Shown: piece after piece, positions 31,441-40,134 of the stretch
Numbering within the stretch: position 1 is the stretch's first letter
Layout: the number at the start of each line of letters is the position of its first letter
Assembly: GCA_012270065.1 (NCBI GenBank)
Contig: JAAXJB010000064.1
Coordinates: 72,053 to 136,052, forward strand
Direction: 5' to 3'
Length of the DNA stretch: 64,000 nucleotides
Source of the DNA: Rubripirellula sp.
Lineage (GTDB): Bacteria > Planctomycetota > Planctomycetia > Pirellulales > Pirellulaceae
The notes under the pieces: generated by a model
What the model was told of the DNA's origin: nothing
What the model saw: the letters and a program-made list of their open reading frames with translations, nothing else
Databases searched by the model: none
Position numbers and translations under genes: made by a program

Positions 31441-32922
31441 TCAGCGGTTCGGATCATCCGAGCTGTTATCGGAAGCTCCATCACGAATGGAATTTGCGTC
31501 GCTGGTTGAACCGTGATCCAGACGACGTGACCCGGCGCGACGCGCTTCCTCTGCGTGTTCCTGACCCGCGGCTTTCCCCATTGCATTGACGAGTACCTGC
31601 TTCAAAGAAGATCCTCCCTGCTCCTCGTCTGACTCGTGATCGCCCCATCGCTGCGAGCGACGGATCTTTTGCCACAGATTACGTGCATCTTCCACCGTTT
31701 CGGTAAATGAGATTTCCTCATCGATACTCAGCGAATCAAGGAAGTTCGAACGCGCGGAATCAAAGTGAGCCGCCCGAAACCGTTGGATGACGCGTCCCAC
31801 CTCGTCGATGACATCCTGTTTCTGCTTTTGAGAATCACGACGAAGTCGGGTAGCCTCCTCCAGATCTCCGCGATCTGACTCCACCCCGGCGAGTCGGGCT
31901 ACAATCTGATCATCCAGCACATCATCGGCGGTTGCTGCTGCCCGCTTTTTCAAATCAGTTGATTTGAAGCTGACGAGCTTTTTCCTGAACACTTCGATCG
32001 CTTTCTGATAGTAGGAACCTCTTGGGTCGGCGATGTCGGACAGAAGCTGATCCGTTTCCCTGATTGACTCCAGAATAAACTCCATCGATTGAACGCTCTG
32101 AGCGCGCTCACGAGTCAACTGTTCAGTCAGTCTGATTTTCTCTGGCAGGTCAAAAGCGGTAGCAACCTTGTCCCGTTTGCGCTCGAGCTCATCCATCACC
32201 ACATTGAATGCACTGCGATCGTCAGCGATGATTTTCCGCATCTGATCGGGCGTCTGCTTCAAGAAATCGTAACCTTGTTTTGCTTTCGTGAAACCAATGT
32301 ATCGTGCGAGCCAACGATCGATGCGGCGTGTCAATCCACGACTGCGATATTCGCTCTCCCCATAGTTACGGTCGTACAGATACTTGAATAATGCACTGCT
32401 TTGATAGGCGGGCAGTTTTCGGACGGCGTCCTGATCAATTTCGTGAAGATTCAATTCTGCTCTTTGCAGTGCTACTTCAGCAGCAGCAGCGCGATCTGCC
32501 AACTGAACAAAACTGGAATCTTCCTGCAGACGCGACTCAACCACCGCTGATATCTCATTCTGTTCTGCCACAGCAGCATCCAGGGCACCGCCCTCTTTTT
32601 CCAACCTCTGTTCCGTTGCATCCCGGTTTCCCTGCAGCTGTATCAGTTTGTCACTCAACAAACGATTATCATCTTCCTTCTGCAGAAGAATTTCTGAAAA
32701 CTCCTGCTGAACCTCTCGCCATGTTGAATCAATAGCATCTGCTGTCAATTCAGGGAGATAATGTTCAGCAAGACTGCGCAGTGCTTCATCACGTTCAGCA
32801 TCCAACTGCTGATGTTGCTCGTCTACGCCTTTCATACCAAGACGTTCGTTTTCCAATTGCTCGGACAAACGTTTGTGCGCATCCATCAGTTGTTGATACA
32901 CAGCAGGACCGGGAATCGACAT
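31441..32922 (-). CDS. long coiled-coil cytoplasmic protein, partner of a TelA-like module
   Basis: This 493-aa protein has no signal or membrane helix. Residues about 10-160 form a coiled coil. A conserved-looking core follows at about 170-255 ('FKYLYDRNYGESEYRSRG' then 'RRIDRWLARYIGFTKAKQGYDFL'), then more helix, and a polar acidic tail (about 430-493). I do not assign a named family. It is downstream of, and probably co-transcribed with, the small tail-anchored protein at 32951, and divergent from the TelA-like gene. Confidence 0.75.
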   Translation of the reverse strand: MSIPGPAVYQQLMDAHKRLSEQLENERLGMKGVDEQHQQLDAERDEALRSLAEHYLPELTADAIDSTWREVQQEFSEILLQKEDDNRLLSDKLIQLQGNRDATEQRLEKEGGALDAAVAEQNEISAVVESRLQEDSSFVQLADRAAAAEVALQRAELNLHEIDQDAVRKLPAYQSSALFKYLYDRNYGESEYRSRGLTRRIDRWLARYIGFTKAKQGYDFLKQTPDQMRKIIADDRSAFNVVMDELERKRDKVATAFDLPEKIRLTEQLTRERAQSVQSMEFILESIRETDQLLSDIADPRGSYYQKAIEVFRKKLVSFKSTDLKKRAAATADDVLDDQIVARLAGVESDRGDLEEATRLRRDSQKQKQDVIDEVGRVIQRFRAAHFDSARSNFLDSLSIDEEISFTETVEDARNLWQKIRRSQRWGDHESDEEQGGSSLKQVLVNAMGKAAGQEHAEEARRAGSRRLDHGSTSDANSIRDGASDNSSDDPNR

Positions 32923-32950
32923 CTACCAAGTAACCTTGAATTACGGAGCT

Positions 32951-33373
32951 TTAAAGAAACAGCAACAAAAGGCCACCGACAACAGTCGCAACCGCTGTAG
33001 TCGCGAGCATCAAACGACCGCGATAAACCCAGCAGTGCGCTAAAAGGGACTGAAAGCCCGGCTGAGGATCTTCATAACTGTGAACGGACTCAAAGAACTG
33101 CTCAATCGCAAGCTCTATTTCAGCTTCGGTGACATCGTCGCCAGACATGCGAGCCGTGCGTACAAGTTTATCGCGTAACTGTTTCCTCAGATCGTCACGA
33201 CGAAACATCTCCTCGGCTGTCTCGCGCTGGTCCCGCATTTCTCGAGCCACATCCATGACTCTCAATGTTTCTTGAAGAGATAGATTCTCCTCTGGCAACA
33301 AGCTGGTCTTCCTGCGATCAACGTTTGAGGATCGCATGGATGCGTTTGCTTGGGCCTGTGACTGGTTAGCCAT
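32951..33373 (-). CDS. small C-terminally anchored protein, DUF6384-like
   Basis: From ATG 33373 the product is 140 aa. A polar N-terminus leads to 'LSLQETLRVMDVAREMRDQRE', then 'RTARMSGDDVTEAEIELAIEQFFES' and 'HCWVYRG', and ends in one transmembrane helix with no residues beyond it ('MLATTAVATVVGGLLLLFL'). The protein would face the cytoplasm as a tail-anchored protein. It resembles, from memory, the DUF6384 family; this needs a profile search. The frame opens 69 bases further upstream to 33442. It lies 28 bp ahead of the coiled-coil gene and diverges from the TelA-like gene. Confidence 0.7.
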   Translation of the reverse strand: MANQSQAQANASMRSSNVDRRKTSLLPEENLSLQETLRVMDVAREMRDQRETAEEMFRRDDLRKQLRDKLVRTARMSGDDVTEAEIELAIEQFFESVHSYEDPQPGFQSLLAHCWVYRGRLMLATTAVATVVGGLLLLFL

Positions 33374-33596
33374 GATCTTCGCAGGTGGGTTTGGAGGGTC
33401 CTGACCAGTGATTAGTCTATTCAATTGGCTCGTTTTACGCATTCGGGGAGTGCGAAAAGTCCGACTTCACCGGAAATGGCCCTGATCAACGTCTAGCTGA
33501 TTGCAGCAACACGAATCACGCGCTAATCTAATATCCGTTGAGAACTTGCGGAAAAATCGCTGCTCCAACAGACCATTTCCCGGAGAATTTGCTGCC

Positions 33597-34826
33597 ATGT
33601 CAGACCAAGCACAACAACCTGCCCCTGAACCAGATGCATCGAGTACCAAAGCCCAGAACTCCACCTCCATGCACAAATATCTGGGGCGGGCAGTCAATGT
33701 CTTGAAAGAATTTGGCATCAACAGTTCAGAAACGGCGCCGCAGGAACTCATCGGACTGCTGGAAAGTGTGAAGCATCTGGACGAACCCAAAGTTCTTGCG
33801 ATCGCTGATGTCATCCAGCACATGAGTGCGTTCAATGCCCTCGTGCGCGAAAACGTCGAGGGAATCTCTGTGGGTGACCGTTACATGAATATCACCCAGA
33901 TGTTCGATTCGATCCGCGAAGACAGTAAACGATTAATCAACCAGCTGGATGATGGAAAAATCAGTGGCACTGAAAAAGTGTCGAACTGGTGGATGAAGAT
34001 GCGACGGGGAACACCCAGTGATCGCTTTGAAAAGATCATTGAGGTTTACGGTGAAGTTGCAAAAGATACGAAAGAGCAACTGAAACGTGAAGAAACCATC
34101 ATGGAGGGCTACATTGACTTTCGCTTTGCCCTGAAAGAAGCAGAAATTCTTTCACGAGATCTTTATCAGGCGCAGGAACCAGTTCTCGAACAGGCCAAGG
34201 CTGCCCTGAGTAAGACCCAGGATGATCTGGACGCCTATACCGGTGATGATGAGAGTGAAAAGAGCAAACTCGAACTGGCAAGGGACGAAGCCCGTTACGC
34301 CTATGAAAAGGAAGACGCAACTTTCCAGTTGCTAAAGGATATCGCCGAGAATCTCGAGGTCGGCTATGACGTCGGTGAAACCCTGATCACCAAGCTGAAA
34401 CAGACCCACGACGTCAAGGAAAGAGTCTATCGAAGGTCTGTCACCTTCTTCACGACGAACGAACACGTTTTTACCATCCTCGGAACGGTCTACACCAGCC
34501 AACATGGACTGCATGAAGTCACACAGGCAACCGAAGCAATGAAAACGGGAGTCAACAAGGGACTTGAAGACATCGCTGATCTGGGAAGGGAATTGGAACG
34601 CGCCGCATTGAAAGCAGGATATGGCAGTACCATCAACCCCGAATCCGTGCAAAAACTCGTCGACGCGATCAGCGGCTTTCAGGTTGAATCACTTGAAATG
34701 ATTGCTGATCTGAGAAAAGAGTCTGAAGAAAGCGCCAAGGAAATACGCAAGACCGTCGAAGAAGGCAAACAGAAATATCAGGAAACACTCGCTCGACACG
34801 CGCGTGGTGAAAGCCTGAGACCCTGA
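33597..34826 (+). CDS. TelA-like helical protein
   Basis: From ATG 33597, preceded by GGAGAA, the product is 409 aa, soluble and almost entirely helical. Its layout resembles TelA/YceH (toxic anion resistance): an N-terminal region 'GISVGDRYMNITQMFDSI', a long helix near 165-200 ('EEGYIDF'-like 'MEGYIDFRFALKEAE'), then a C-terminal region (about 285-400) with 'HVFTILGTVYTSQ', 'GVNKGLEDIADLGREL' and 'EEGKQKYQETLARHA' in the order and spacing of the TelA C-terminus. Sequence identity is low, so this is a structural-pattern guess. It is divergent from two coiled-coil genes with about 220 bp between starts. Confidence 0.6.
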   Translation: MSDQAQQPAPEPDASSTKAQNSTSMHKYLGRAVNVLKEFGINSSETAPQELIGLLESVKHLDEPKVLAIADVIQHMSAFNALVRENVEGISVGDRYMNITQMFDSIREDSKRLINQLDDGKISGTEKVSNWWMKMRRGTPSDRFEKIIEVYGEVAKDTKEQLKREETIMEGYIDFRFALKEAEILSRDLYQAQEPVLEQAKAALSKTQDDLDAYTGDDESEKSKLELARDEARYAYEKEDATFQLLKDIAENLEVGYDVGETLITKLKQTHDVKERVYRRSVTFFTTNEHVFTILGTVYTSQHGLHEVTQATEAMKTGVNKGLEDIADLGRELERAALKAGYGSTINPESVQKLVDAISGFQVESLEMIADLRKESEESAKEIRKTVEEGKQKYQETLARHARGESLRP

Positions 34827-35220: not shown

Positions 35221-35223
35221 GTG

Positions 35224-37419
35224 ATGAAGGTTGGCAGTGGAGGAGGATTTCGAGCGATCCACTACACCTGGAAAAAAGGACGGGAAGCAGGTGGCCTGCT
35301 GAAACTTTATAAGGCCATGCGCACGCGGAATTCCTGCAAAACCTGCGCACTGGGAATGGGTGGTCAGAAAGGAGGGATGGTCAATGAAACCGGATCGTTT
35401 CCCGAAGTATGCAAAAAATCACTTCAAGCCATGGTTGCCGACATGCAACCGGGAATCGAGCCTGTGTTCTGGCAACAGAACACTATCGAGGACTTGAAAC
35501 GCCTTTCACCGCGTGAATTGGAGAATCTCGGGCGCCTCATTCACCCCATCCGCTACCGCAAAGGCAATACTCACTTCGAAACAGTCACTTGGCAGGAAGC
35601 TTATGAGTCGATTGTCGGAAAGCTAAGGCAAACGGAAGCGGATCGCTCTTTTTGGTATTTCAGCGGGCGAAGCAGCAATGAAGCTGGTTTTCTGTTGCAA
35701 CTCATGGCACGGGTGTACGGTACCAACAACGTCAACAACTGCAGCTATTACTGCCATCAGGCCAGCGGAGTTGGGCTGCAGTCGGCGGTGGGAAGTGGAA
35801 CAGCCACCATTGTTCTTGAAGATGTCGATCAAGCAGACTGCATTTTTGTGATCGGTGGTAACCCCGCAAGCAATCATCCACGCCTGATGACCAGCTTGAT
35901 GCATCTGCGGCGGCGCGGCGGAAAAGTCGTGGTGATCAATCCGGTACGCGAAACCGGCATGGTGAAGTTTCGCGTTCCAAGTGATCCTGTTTCGCTTTTA
36001 AAAGGATCAAAGATTGCCAGCCATTACATCCAACCCCACATCGGCGGTGACCTGGCACTCCTGTGGGGAATCGCGAAAGCTGTCAAACAACTGGATGCGT
36101 TGGATGACGACTACCTTCAGAAATATTGCAGTGACGTTGATCAGTGGCGACAGCGCGTCGAAGAAATAACGTGGGAGGAAATCGAGACTAAATCGGGTGT
36201 ACCGCGGAGCGAAGTTGAGGACATCGCCCGTGTTTATGCCAGTTCAAAACGGTGCGTGTTTGCATGGACGATGGGCATCACCCATCACGCACATGGGGTT
36301 CAGAATGTTCAAGCCATTGCAAATCTGGCTCTCTGTCGGGGCATGGTTGGAAGGGCCGGATGTGGCCTGATGCCGATTCGTGGTCACAGCAACGTGCAAG
36401 GAATCGGCAGCGTCGGTGTGACCCCAAAACTGAAGACACAGATTTTTGATGCCCTGCAAAAGAAATATCAGCTCCAGTTACCTACTTCTATTGGAAAAGA
36501 CACCCTCGAGTGCATGGAAGCAGCGAGCAGATACGAGTTGTCGTTCGGATTTTCACTTGGTGGCAATCTGTTTGGTTCCAATCCTGATTCCGGATTCGCG
36601 GCGGAAGCGCTTTCGCGTCTGGACATGAGCGTCATGTTGAGCACCACGATGAATACGGGCCATGTGAATGGTCTTGCCGCTGAAACCTACATTCTTCCTG
36701 TCCTCGCCCGTGATGAAGAACCCACACCGACGACCCAGGAATCCATGTTCAATTATGTGCGGCTGAGCGATGGAGGCCCCAGAAGGCTGCCGGGTCCACG
36801 GAGCGAAGTCGAGGTCATTGCCGAACTTGGGAAGCGTCTGCTGCCTGAGGCTCAAGGGATTGCCTGGCAGAAAATGCAGGAAACCAGCACCATCCGGCAG
36901 TGGATCGCCGATGTAATTCCCGGATATGAACAGATTGCAGATATCGACAAGACAGGCAAGGAATTTCAGATTGGTGGACGTACCTTCCACGAACCGCAAT
37001 TTGCCACAAATGATGGGCTGGCAAATCTGCATACGCATTCCATTCCGGATCTCAACGGTCGGCAGGATCAGGAATTACGCCTGATGACAGTCCGAAGTGA
37101 GGGACAGTTCAATACAGTGGTATACGAAGAAGAGGACCTTTACCGGAATCAGAAACACCGCGATGTAATCCTGATTCACCCCGATGACCTTCAACGGCTT
37201 GGGCTTGAACATGAAGATCGCGTGGAAGTTCAAAGTAAGACTGGTGTTCTTTCCAATATCCAGGCAAGAAGCTACGAATCGATACGGCCGGGCAATGCCC
37301 TGATGTACTTCCCAGAAGCCAATATTCTCGTTTCTCGGCATACAGATCCGAGCAGCAAAACACCAGCCTTCAAAGGCGTGGTTGTTCGAGTCGTGCCCAT
37401 TCCAAATCAGCCCGGCTGA
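35224..37419 (+). CDS. FdhF/YdeP-type molybdopterin oxidoreductase
   Basis: The product is about 731 aa (a GTG one codon earlier is possible; GGAAAGG lies just upstream). It matches the YdeP-like 'alpha subunit' family of bis-MGD oxidoreductases: 'SCKTCALGMGGQKGGM' near residues 36-51, 'DRSFWYFSGRSSNEAG', a Cys at the expected Mo-ligand position in 'NNCSYYCHQASG', 'IFVIGGNPASNHPR', 'MPIRGHSNVQGIGSVG' and the C-terminal molydopterin-binding domain ('HRDVILIHPDDLQRLGL'). There is no N-terminal 4Fe-4S CxxCxxxC cluster motif of the formate dehydrogenase type. The substrate is unknown; E. coli YdeP is linked to acid resistance. No Tat signal is seen, so it is cytoplasmic. Confidence 0.92.
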   Translation: MKVGSGGGFRAIHYTWKKGREAGGLLKLYKAMRTRNSCKTCALGMGGQKGGMVNETGSFPEVCKKSLQAMVADMQPGIEPVFWQQNTIEDLKRLSPRELENLGRLIHPIRYRKGNTHFETVTWQEAYESIVGKLRQTEADRSFWYFSGRSSNEAGFLLQLMARVYGTNNVNNCSYYCHQASGVGLQSAVGSGTATIVLEDVDQADCIFVIGGNPASNHPRLMTSLMHLRRRGGKVVVINPVRETGMVKFRVPSDPVSLLKGSKIASHYIQPHIGGDLALLWGIAKAVKQLDALDDDYLQKYCSDVDQWRQRVEEITWEEIETKSGVPRSEVEDIARVYASSKRCVFAWTMGITHHAHGVQNVQAIANLALCRGMVGRAGCGLMPIRGHSNVQGIGSVGVTPKLKTQIFDALQKKYQLQLPTSIGKDTLECMEAASRYELSFGFSLGGNLFGSNPDSGFAAEALSRLDMSVMLSTTMNTGHVNGLAAETYILPVLARDEEPTPTTQESMFNYVRLSDGGPRRLPGPRSEVEVIAELGKRLLPEAQGIAWQKMQETSTIRQWIADVIPGYEQIADIDKTGKEFQIGGRTFHEPQFATNDGLANLHTHSIPDLNGRQDQELRLMTVRSEGQFNTVVYEEEDLYRNQKHRDVILIHPDDLQRLGLEHEDRVEVQSKTGVLSNIQARSYESIRPGNALMYFPEANILVSRHTDPSSKTPAFKGVVVRVVPIPNQPG

Positions 37420-37554
37420 ACCCGCAGCGCGTGTTTCACGCAATCCCAGTGAAACAGCCTGTCGGAATTTAACGTCGACGTGTCGTATCAATTCCTGCTA
37501 TTGGAAGGATTCTGGCTCTGGATACCGTTGCGCGCCTGGCGCAACCCCGCGAAG

Positions 37555-40134
37555 ATGGAACCTTCAATGATCGACCTGCCTGGTATTTCTGTTCAATTTC
37601 TGGGTATGCCTCTGTCGTCTGCCGCACTTTTCCTGTTAGCAGGGCTGCTACTCGGTCATCTGCTCTGGTATCGGGAGCGCAGCAAGAAAAGCTCTGATGA
37701 ACCGGAACTGGAATCACGCTACATCAAACTCCGGAGTTCACTCAAACAGCGCAAGGTGCAACTCAGGGAACTGCAAAAACAGCATGAATCCGTAAGCGAG
37801 GATTTGACCATCCTTCAAAAGGCACACTCGACCCTTCGATCCAAGAATAAGCGACTGGAACAGCTTTCGAGAAGTTCGCGGGACGAATTGAACGAGTTCC
37901 GCCATGCGCTCAACGATACTGAAATAAAACTGGCGAGTGAAGAAAAAAGAAACCAGACAGTGATCGGTCAATTGCAGGAGTTGATCGAGACGAATACAAA
38001 TCTCGTCAGCGAAAATAAAAACCATCAACACGGCTTTCAGCTGCTGGAGAAGCAATATCAGGAGTGTCTGGCAGACCTTGAAGCAACTCATGTTGAAATC
38101 GCAAAGTTGCAACAGCGTGCCGATGAAACCGAAACGGAGTCGAAACAGCAACAGCAGTTGATCAGCGATCTGGAGCAACGAAACATCGTTCAGGATGGAA
38201 CGCTGAAAGAAACAGAGGAAGCATTGCAAAGAACCCAACAGGATCTGGTAGCAAGATGCAAAGACCTTGATGCTATTCAGATTGATCGAGAGCAGTTGGA
38301 AGAAAACGTGCAGCAGCAGCACAAAAAGATCAACGAGCTTGAAACCGATCTTGAAATGGCAACCCGGATTCAGATGGAGCGGGATGAGTTCGCAAATGAT
38401 CTGGCTGAGGCTGCAAACTCACTGTCAGAACAAAGACAGACACTCGAGCAATGTGAAGCCACACTTGAGCAGAAAAATGCACAAATCCACGACATGGAAA
38501 AATCCATCGAGACAACCACGCTGCAACTGGCGGAAGTTCAGAAACACCGGCTGCAACTGGAGCAATTCAATGAGGCCTGCCAAAACCGCCTTGATGAACT
38601 GGAAAGTCTATTCAATGAAAAGTCAACAGAATGCCAGAGTCTCTCAATAGCACTGGGGACCGCTCGAGTCGAACAGACAGAAGCACAGGACCAAATCCAG
38701 ATTCTGCTCAATGATCAGAAACAGGCCAAAACGAGGCAGACTGTCCTACGTACCAAAATCACTGATTTACAGAGACTTGTCGAACAGCAGGAACAGCAAC
38801 TTCATGACGTGAATGCTCTTCGTGAAGAAGCAAATGCCCAGACACTTGAACTTTCCCAAACCAGAAAAGAACTGGCCAATGAAACTGCGAACGTTGCAAA
38901 ACTGCAACAACAGCTGGCTGCATGGACTGAAAATCACCAACAGTTGGAAACAGCACAAGCCACGATACAACAATACCATCACCGCAATTCAGCCAACGAA
39001 AGCGTGATTCTTCAGCAGGAAGCCCAGATCACAACGCTGAGACAGAGAGCCAGCGATTTGGAAAATCTGGAATCTGGACTTAAACTCAAACAGGCTGAAG
39101 TCGAACAAGCCACCAGTGAAATTGAAATTCAAAAGGGAAACGTCCTGAAAGTCGATCAAGCACTTCAAGACAATGAGGCCGAACTGGCTTCTGCCATTGC
39201 CGAAATCCATCTGATGGAAAAACGGATTGAAACAATGTCCGAAGAGTTTGTCTCACTTGCAACGGATAATGAACTGTTATCCGCTGACCACAAGCAATCT
39301 GCCAGCGAAATAATCCAACTGCGGGCCAAGCTGGAAGAATTCCAATCGAGTCATCAGTTGCTCGAAAAATCCACCATGGAGTTACTGACAGTCCAGCAAG
39401 AACGTGATCAGCTGGTCAAAACAAGAGATGGTCTCGAAGCAACAGTCAGTCGACTCGGTAATCAGATCACGACCCATCTCACTGAAACCAGAGAGATCAG
39501 GGAATGTCTATCACAGAAAACGGAGGAGTACAGGAAACAGGAAGAAGGTTTTCACCAGGCGGTCGCTTCCCGGGAAGCGACAATCGCTGAATTGAAACTA
39601 CAACTTGATGACAGAATAAAACAGCATGATGCTGCTGTTGATGACTTGGCGATGAAAACTGTCACAATGGACGATCAGCAACTGAAGATCGAACAATTGA
39701 CGAGTGCACTCGAAAACATGGAGAGTGCTCACGAGGAAACGGAAAAGCTCGAAGCCGGAATACAGGAGCTTGAAAAACAGCATCAAGAACTGATCCATGA
39801 TTACAACCTCGGAAAAAACCGGATTGCCGAACAAAACCACGAAATGGAAAAACTGACAGCAGAACTCAAGACTCTCGAATCAGATCGAGTCGAGCGCGAT
39901 CAACTGCAATTGGAAGTTACAGAATTGAAATCGCATATCGAGTGTCTGCGCGAAGAACTGGAAGACAGTCTGGACAGCAACGCTCAAGGGCAGGACCGTT
40001 TGCGCAACCTCGAAAACCAGTTACACGAGCACGTCCAGAAGATTCGAGAACTGCGTCGGCATCGTAGTTCCCCATCTTCGGGTGAAACCGACAGTCCCGT
40101 CATCAAGCCCGAATCCGATCGCAAAGCTGCTTGA
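37555..40134 (+). CDS. membrane-anchored giant coiled-coil protein
   Basis: From ATG 37555 the product is about 859 aa (GTG 37480 and ATG 37567 are alternatives). One transmembrane helix near residues 17-37 ('SSAALFLLAGLLLGHLLWY') is followed by a basic stretch, and then about 780 residues of nearly unbroken coiled coil rich in Glu, Gln, Leu and Lys, with repeated heptads such as 'LEQCEATLEQKNAQIHDMEK'. A short polar tail ends it. The topology puts the rod in the cytoplasm. No SMC-type ATPase head is present. Such a rod could be a scaffold for cell shape, nucleoid or membrane organisation, but that is inference. Eukaryotic-like similarity would be compositional only. Confidence 0.8.
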   Translation: MEPSMIDLPGISVQFLGMPLSSAALFLLAGLLLGHLLWYRERSKKSSDEPELESRYIKLRSSLKQRKVQLRELQKQHESVSEDLTILQKAHSTLRSKNKRLEQLSRSSRDELNEFRHALNDTEIKLASEEKRNQTVIGQLQELIETNTNLVSENKNHQHGFQLLEKQYQECLADLEATHVEIAKLQQRADETETESKQQQQLISDLEQRNIVQDGTLKETEEALQRTQQDLVARCKDLDAIQIDREQLEENVQQQHKKINELETDLEMATRIQMERDEFANDLAEAANSLSEQRQTLEQCEATLEQKNAQIHDMEKSIETTTLQLAEVQKHRLQLEQFNEACQNRLDELESLFNEKSTECQSLSIALGTARVEQTEAQDQIQILLNDQKQAKTRQTVLRTKITDLQRLVEQQEQQLHDVNALREEANAQTLELSQTRKELANETANVAKLQQQLAAWTENHQQLETAQATIQQYHHRNSANESVILQQEAQITTLRQRASDLENLESGLKLKQAEVEQATSEIEIQKGNVLKVDQALQDNEAELASAIAEIHLMEKRIETMSEEFVSLATDNELLSADHKQSASEIIQLRAKLEEFQSSHQLLEKSTMELLTVQQERDQLVKTRDGLEATVSRLGNQITTHLTETREIRECLSQKTEEYRKQEEGFHQAVASREATIAELKLQLDDRIKQHDAAVDDLAMKTVTMDDQQLKIEQLTSALENMESAHEETEKLEAGIQELEKQHQELIHDYNLGKNRIAEQNHEMEKLTAELKTLESDRVERDQLQLEVTELKSHIECLREELEDSLDSNAQGQDRLRNLENQLHEHVQKIRELRRHRSSPSSGETDSPVIKPESDRKAA

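Follow-up and report, generated by a model that had tools for sequence, protein, structure and literature searches.

A three-gene module with a DUF6384 membrane anchor in Planctomycetota, archaea, megaplasmids and a jumbo phage

A 64,000-nucleotide stretch of the genome of Rubripirellula sp. (Planctomycetota; contig JAAXJB010000064.1, positions 72,053 to 136,052; below, the window, in whose numbering coordinates are given unless another record is named) carries three adjoining genes, here called A, B and C. Gene A (33597-34826, forward strand) encodes a helical protein of 409 amino acids (aa) that lacks a transmembrane segment and has a weakly TelA-like profile. Gene B (32951-33373, reverse strand) encodes a 140-aa short form of DUF6384 (DUF, domain of unknown function), consisting of an N-domain and a C-terminal membrane anchor; the hydrophobic tail anchor maps to 32954-33019 on the reverse strand and corresponds to residues 142-163 of a longer, 163-aa form. 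Gene C (31441-32922, reverse strand) encodes a coiled-coil protein of 493 aa whose central block is conserved and which has no Gly/Phe C-terminal tail. B and C lie on the same strand with 28 bases between them, and A is divergent at a distance of 223 bases from B, the spacer at 33374-33596 being the upstream region common to A and B-C. A preliminary description of this DNA had proposed proteins of 493, 140 and, divergently, 409 aa, and the open reading frames (ORFs) and starts agree with it.

The raw ORF of A opens at a TTG at 33501, and the 140-aa frame of B, read from the ATG at 33373, is nested in a 163-aa ORF that opens at an ATG at 33442. An alignment of seven sequences (the window and six close relatives) shows that both ATGs, at 33597 and 33373, are kept, that a conserved GGAGAA precedes the former, and that the frame upstream of 33373 is broken by length differences. 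We prefer the starts at 33597 and 33373 because these ATGs are conserved and the frame upstream of 33373 is not maintained. Two spacer blocks, 33414-33458 and 33517-33533, are conserved in the same alignment and possibly represent promoters or an operator. Amino acid identity to three relatives is 0.87-0.92 for A, 0.72-0.78 for B and 0.65-0.71 for C. The ratio of nonsynonymous to synonymous substitution rates (dN/dS) is 0.03-0.11 for B and C; for A, dN is 0.05-0.07 and dS is saturated, so that no ratio can be computed. The three genes at these places are real, and selection on them acts at the protein level. The window's genome is 7.0 Mb in size, and the closest named relatives of A among the matches listed are Rhodopirellula metagenome-assembled genomes with at most 92% identity, in a scan from which records very near the genome itself were possibly omitted.

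Single-sequence queries of 119 genomes of the phylum found A in 4. These four also have DUF6384 above its cut-off and a match to C; one further C match was rejected. Across 392 phylum genomes, A occurs in 11, DUF6384 above cut-off in 11 (15 at E <= 0.001) and C in 12 (one marginal). All three genes share an identical set of 11 of the 392 Planctomycetota genomes, spread patchily over 9 genera and 5 families; within one genus (g2), two genomes hold the full set and at least one (G024) holds none of it. The A and C profiles for this search come from four of these 11 genomes; DUF6384 was searched with an independent model. The genes form a same-strand A-B-C cluster in 5 of the 11 genomes (G096, G137, G194, G290, G383) and take the divergent layout of the window in 2 (the window's own, G000, and G315); in G274, A and B are divergent with C on a separate contig, and in G087, G105 and G365 all three lie apart from each other. 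We also compared 87 loci, comprising the best 80 relatives of A together with 7 plasmid loci (two of the 87, L062 and L067, are duplicates), and found A, B and C together in 66, A with B in 10 and A alone in 11. C lies elsewhere in 16 of 19 searched genomes whose A locus lacks it, and is present in the genomes to which the two remaining incomplete loci appear to belong (L095 to G365, L113 to G087). The three genes are thus almost certainly one system, as had been proposed, and the search for the triple across phyla that the preliminary description called for recovers it in bacteria and archaea. That description had staked its proposal on a TelA match or on co-occurrence, and co-occurrence is very strong. 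Several weaker matches were not counted as members: a C match in G083 (E 5.5e-4), rejected as antisense to a 347-aa ORF that we take to be a peptidase; a C match in G018 (E 4.6e-4); and four DUF6384 matches below cut-off inside frames of 775-1486 aa.

The module extends well beyond the phylum. A scan of genome contigs with A returned at least 457 relatives, and the best 80 of 457, which we examined, comprise 68 titled as or assigned to Planctomycetota, 8 sequences titled Woesearchaeota, Pacearchaeota or archaeon, 3 Alphaproteobacteria and 1 Enterobacteriaceae. In all, we find the trio in Planctomycetota, DPANN archaea, Alpha- and Gammaproteobacteria, megaplasmids and the jumbo phage phiR1-37. 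A is divergent from B in 8 of 8 archaeal loci, and 6 of the 8 hold all three genes; two of the eight adjoin archaeal-type genes (L21e, Rpb4, a DKCLD-type TruB and S24e at L129 and L131), and a topoisomerase gene flanks a further one (L135). Eleven plasmid records were matched, 10 were retrieved, and all 10 carry A-B-C, including pMPPla107, pBASL58 and the AM1 megaplasmid; the plasmid relatives of A bear names such as 'cell surface protein' or 'merozoite surface protein 3b'. Near the trio, two Pseudomonas megaplasmids (L144, L148) have genes for StiP, peptidyl-tRNA hydrolase and dCTP deaminase a few genes away, and a third plasmid (L145) has a dCTP deaminase gene.

Both phage records matched are phiR1-37, the sole match in a scan of viral contigs. 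Its genes g190, g191 and g192 correspond to A, B and C (5.3e-138, 1e-44 and 6.1e-5, respectively) within L151:8995-12826 (AJ972879.2 128018-131849); g192 scores low against C, yet has the family tail and the expected position. The record gives g190-g192 no product name and labels g174, g176, g178 and g196, but not g190-g192, as structural proteins, and a term search of the main text of PMC13030884 found no mention of the three genes. With the trio of Enterobacteriaceae bacterium B14 as query, blastn gave no DNA match in E. coli genomes, a search that diverged copies could escape.

B is the member with a recognised family. It matches Pfam DUF6384 (PF19911), an entry of unknown function, with 38.8 bits against a curated cut-off of 25 (E 7.7e-10, profile positions 5-110 of 308), and 11 of 11 family members scanned match it at E <= 0.1. 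Its single hydrophobic segment lies at the very C-terminal end, which makes B a tail-anchored DUF6384 protein, the tail anchor having been suggested earlier. In full forms of B, the N-domain is followed by a single membrane segment, a helical part and a beta-rich domain ending in GxITxW; the window's B, in contrast, stops at the membrane segment and lacks this post-anchor domain. Short forms carry on average 2.90 lysine and arginine residues before the segment versus 0.17 after it, with more before than after in 29 of 30, and forms with the C-terminal domain carry 3.52 versus 2.43 (25 with more before, 4 with fewer and 15 equal; n=44). This bias suggests that the N-domain faces the cytosol. 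A model of a full-length B (the L138 protein) has a mean predicted local distance difference test (pLDDT) score of 86.3 and a predicted template modelling (pTM) score of 0.60. It found nothing in the PDB with Foldseek at E <= 0.001, and its beta-rich domain gave no clear structural match, most rows covering the preceding three-helix stretch, which is no proof of a new fold.

The conserved central block of C reads LFxYL...YR.RGL.R..D.W.AR...Y.FL. In most full forms the C-terminus is a Gly/Ser/Phe tail, for example GGGFRTGGGF; that of the phage protein is GGGGFSSSDSF. A C profile found coiled coils among PDB sequences (best E 0.01). Three Rhodopirellula-type genomes (G402, G403 and G404, of loci L079, L080 and L085) each have two C homologues, the second lower-scoring and in a frame of 638-661 aa. 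Single-sequence scans of the trio against Pfam, NCBIfam, PADLOC and PHROGs gave one convincing assignment, B as DUF6384; neither the window's A and C in Pfam and NCBIfam nor their relatives in Pfam have a convincing match. Other matches of the trio (RovC, Drt3a, Herpes_UL36, DUF3802 and others of this kind) were dropped because they fell under the cut-off or were weak and stood alone.

The C-terminal domain of B and the tail of C are mostly kept or lost together, and the window's clade has lost both. Among 75 distinct loci, 42 have domain and tail, 26 have neither, 5 have the tail only and 2 the domain only; these are the loci of a 77-locus set (42, 27, 6 and 2 under the same rule) minus the duplicates L067 and G315. 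The tail was scored as a hydrophobic residue in the last 3 positions plus at least 3 G, S or T in the last 9, a rule chosen after the ends had been inspected, so the counts are descriptive. L066, L109, L124 and L099 were left out with C cut off, broken or miscalled. A first rule (B of at least 280 aa; C ending in F or Y) gave 36 with both, 29 with neither, 7 with the domain only and 6 with the tail only among 78 loci; a second (domain by profile, tail by regular expression) gave 37, 34, 9 and 1 among 81 and missed ends of the RGFTNGRGF type. Because the counts follow relatedness, they reflect few independent events. On a tree of A, domain and tail disappear along a single branch leading to 31 tips, the window included, with a common regain in G365 and L091; without regain, the tree implies at least two shared losses. 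Loss of the domain with the tail kept is seen in L103 and in G315/L120, which are the same genome, and on score alone in L136. The tail alone changes in L168, L110, L075 and L084, and these changes are partly artefacts of the rule: L075 and L084 resemble false positives, and L110 and L168 retain a tail recognisable by eye.

For A, the preliminary description had proposed kinship with TelA. An AlphaFold2 model from a 36-sequence alignment (mean pLDDT 72.8, pTM 0.62) is all helix; residues 301-347 are well conserved and of low model confidence, and may be a partner-binding part. A 19-residue hydropathy scan found no hydrophobic segment in A or C. The invariant columns of A contain neither Cys nor His, which makes redox chemistry on tellurite unlikely, and the family has motifs of its own (FFxTNExVFT, KAGYGxT). 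A has no TelA match (PF05816) in Pfam at E <= 1; in a search of 25 A members at E <= 0.1, TelA is not among the best 25 of 31 families, the other 6 being matched by one member each with best E >= 0.071. TelA is found neither in the window's own genome nor above cut-off in any of 246 phylum genomes, and it occurs in 1 of 17 trio hosts examined. Profile comparison with hhalign gave 0.8% with 25 A and 6 TelA sequences. With 43 and 13 (40 of the 43 A sequences were used), it gave 14% locally (P 0.002, 283 columns) and 33.8% globally (P 7.6e-5, score 25.6, 355 columns), collinear over nearly the full length. Match-column scores are 30.5 local and 25.5 global for the real pair versus 18.6 and 8.0 for the reversed control; none of 100 block shuffles (means 20.1 and 6.3) reaches the real values, narrowly, the best (30.3 and 25.2) coming within 0.3. 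The positive control, the TelA paralogue KlaA, scores 97-98% against TelA in the same set-up. Among the best 50 viral structures for the A model, Foldseek returned three TelA-named entries (ranks 13, 31 and 33; E 0.035-0.12), and it found nothing at E <= 0.001 in structure libraries including the PDB. Against PDB sequences, the TelA profile gave no match at E <= 0.1 and the A profile three chance matches (best E 0.28). The proposed kinship, absent from Pfam and from the small profiles, is thus suggestive at the profile level with larger ones, near the edge of the controls.

A and TelA (KlaB of IncP plasmids) are alike in length, all-helical build and a weak collinear match, and differ in A's own motifs and other partners. 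The KlaA-KlaB-KlaC (FiwB) set of RK2-type plasmids is similar in having three genes, soluble proteins and one membrane protein. KlaC-type proteins, however, have 3-7 hydrophobic segments versus one in B, and C has no convincing similarity to KlaA or to TelA (best 2.6%, KlaA with C). According to passages of PMC5696584, KlaA, KlaB and KlaC are each required for fertility inhibition. TelA is described in part of PMC7824862 as belonging to sub-membrane structures that prevent the entry of phage or xenobiotics, and the same portion places Ter systems on large phages and plasmids, as is also the case for the trio. Passages of PMC13109727 tie a Lactococcus orf53-telA-telB-telC locus to tellurite and call the function of its proteins uncharacterised. 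Five plasmid TelA loci (L152, L154, L156, L169, L170) hold a different trio: TelA itself, a TelA paralogue of ~240-270 aa (97-98% profile probability to TelA as a set) and a protein of ~320-350 aa that has 3-4 hydrophobic segments. In 4 of the 5 loci, lepB is nearby.

Unlike Ter systems, the trio is found without TerD in all 11 planctomycete hosts; TerD occurs in 4 of 28 trio host genomes or records overall, and elsewhere on 3 of 7 trio plasmid records searched. TerC-family genes are present in 8 of the 11 planctomycete hosts, none closer than ~34 kb to a trio gene. No Ter-type family was found among 10 window proteins scanned, the trio included, in line with the earlier remark that no TerD, TerC or vWA gene is adjacent; the label 'Ter-independent variant' attached to it presumes a TelA or Ter origin and is not supported in that form. 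Outside the module, two further proteins are encoded at 35221-40134 of the window, first a 732-aa molybdopterin oxidoreductase and then a coiled-coil-like protein of 884 aa.

We tentatively favour, at a little short of an even prospect, a membrane-anchored scaffold with Kla/TelA-like protection or exclusion. A, B and C would act together at the cytoplasmic membrane, where the cytosolic N-domain of B would serve as dock and A and C would assemble on it into a coiled-coil scaffold beneath the membrane. In full forms, C's tail would pair functionally with the C-terminal domain of B, and the scaffold would shield or close the membrane against passing agents such as foreign DNA, phage or toxic compounds. 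The anatomy of the proteins makes it probable that B anchors A and C. A scaffold is indicated rather than an enzyme because A, B and C gave no convincing match to a catalytic family; peptidoglycan or lipopolysaccharide is hardly the target, as the trio is present in archaea; and patchiness with carriage on plasmids and phage argues for a conditional benefit. The protective role, for which KlaA-KlaB(TelA)-KlaC of IncP plasmids and phage TelA supply the analogy, is a possibility that we hold with less assurance than the scaffold reading as a whole. Of the membrane-associated stress or envelope system first proposed, the single system and the tail anchor stand, and the role in stress or at the envelope is conjecture. 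Several points weigh against a protective scaffold. The charge bias is weak in full B forms, and C was not found in 3 of the 19 genomes searched for it. The paired loss is odd if the B domain and the C tail sit on opposite sides of the membrane; with the N-terminus of B inside, the domain would be outside and the tail inside, which leaves direct contact unexplained. B is unrelated to KlaC by profile, and with 88 A and 15 TelA sequences the similarity fell to 7.3% and 17.9%, a borderline likeness that did not grow with more sequences. PADLOC returned nothing convincing (best E 0.0062), the annotated neighbours scanned at L138 and L141 are housekeeping genes and no defence island, and one plasmid copy only, L143 on a Pseudomonas aeruginosa PA83 plasmid, lies near a gene of a type IV CRISPR (clustered regularly interspaced short palindromic repeats) system, csf2 ~5 kb downstream.

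If A were instead a true, very divergent TelA, the trio would be a branch of the Ter/Tel stress systems with swapped partners. The collinear global match, its distance from the reversed control, the failure of all shuffles to reach it and the TelA-named viral structures speak for this, as do the StiP and related genes near two Pseudomonas megaplasmid copies and TerD elsewhere on three plasmid records. Such an origin is nevertheless unlikely, given the empty Pfam searches with A and its 25 members, the missing TelA in the window's genome and its rarity, with that of TerD, in trio hosts, the small-profile score, the Foldseek E values, the shuffles that fall just short and the far higher score of KlaA. 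A housekeeping scaffold for cell shape or for envelope or nucleoid organisation at the membrane, with no protective role, would suit the helical and coiled-coil make-up of proteins in which no enzyme domain is recognised, housekeeping neighbours where scanned and purifying selection; the trio's patchy presence in 11 of 392 genomes, the mixed genus g2 and the copies on megaplasmids and in phage make it as unlikely as the divergent TelA. In a second structure comparison with the A model, ClyA-type pore formers take 13 of the 14 top rows (Z 10.8-13.1), and a tripartite pore-forming system would also have three components. For helical bundles, however, the tool warns that Z below about 13 may reflect common arrangement only, Foldseek has no match at E <= 0.001, A and C lack a hydrophobic 19-residue segment and the A model has a hydrophilic loop (~213-219) between its two longest helices, so that we regard a pore as very improbable. 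That the genes are three unrelated neighbours might be read from their scattering in G087, G105 and G365, but these genomes still hold all three, and with adjacency in 66 of 87 loci the idea is already refuted by co-occurrence.

We found no paper on the trio or DUF6384 in the open-access literature (subscription papers lay outside the search), and within that scope the trio is an undescribed protein system. The boldest form of the protective-scaffold reading, which we consider somewhat doubtful, is an enzyme-less three-protein membrane exclusion or protection machine of bacteria, DPANN archaea, megaplasmids and jumbo phage, with C-terminal codes (GxITxW in B, ends like GGxFxTGxGF in C) that would cooperate in assembly and were lost together in the window's lineage. 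If true, genes that now go by 'hypothetical', 'cell surface protein' or 'merozoite surface protein 3b' would be one mobile system spanning two domains of life and a virus, and a domain of unknown function would be linked to two new partner families. The system would also offer a way into the long-standing problem of what TelA/Kla modules do at the membrane, with compact, testable copies on the jumbo phage and on the megaplasmid of Methylorubrum extorquens AM1.

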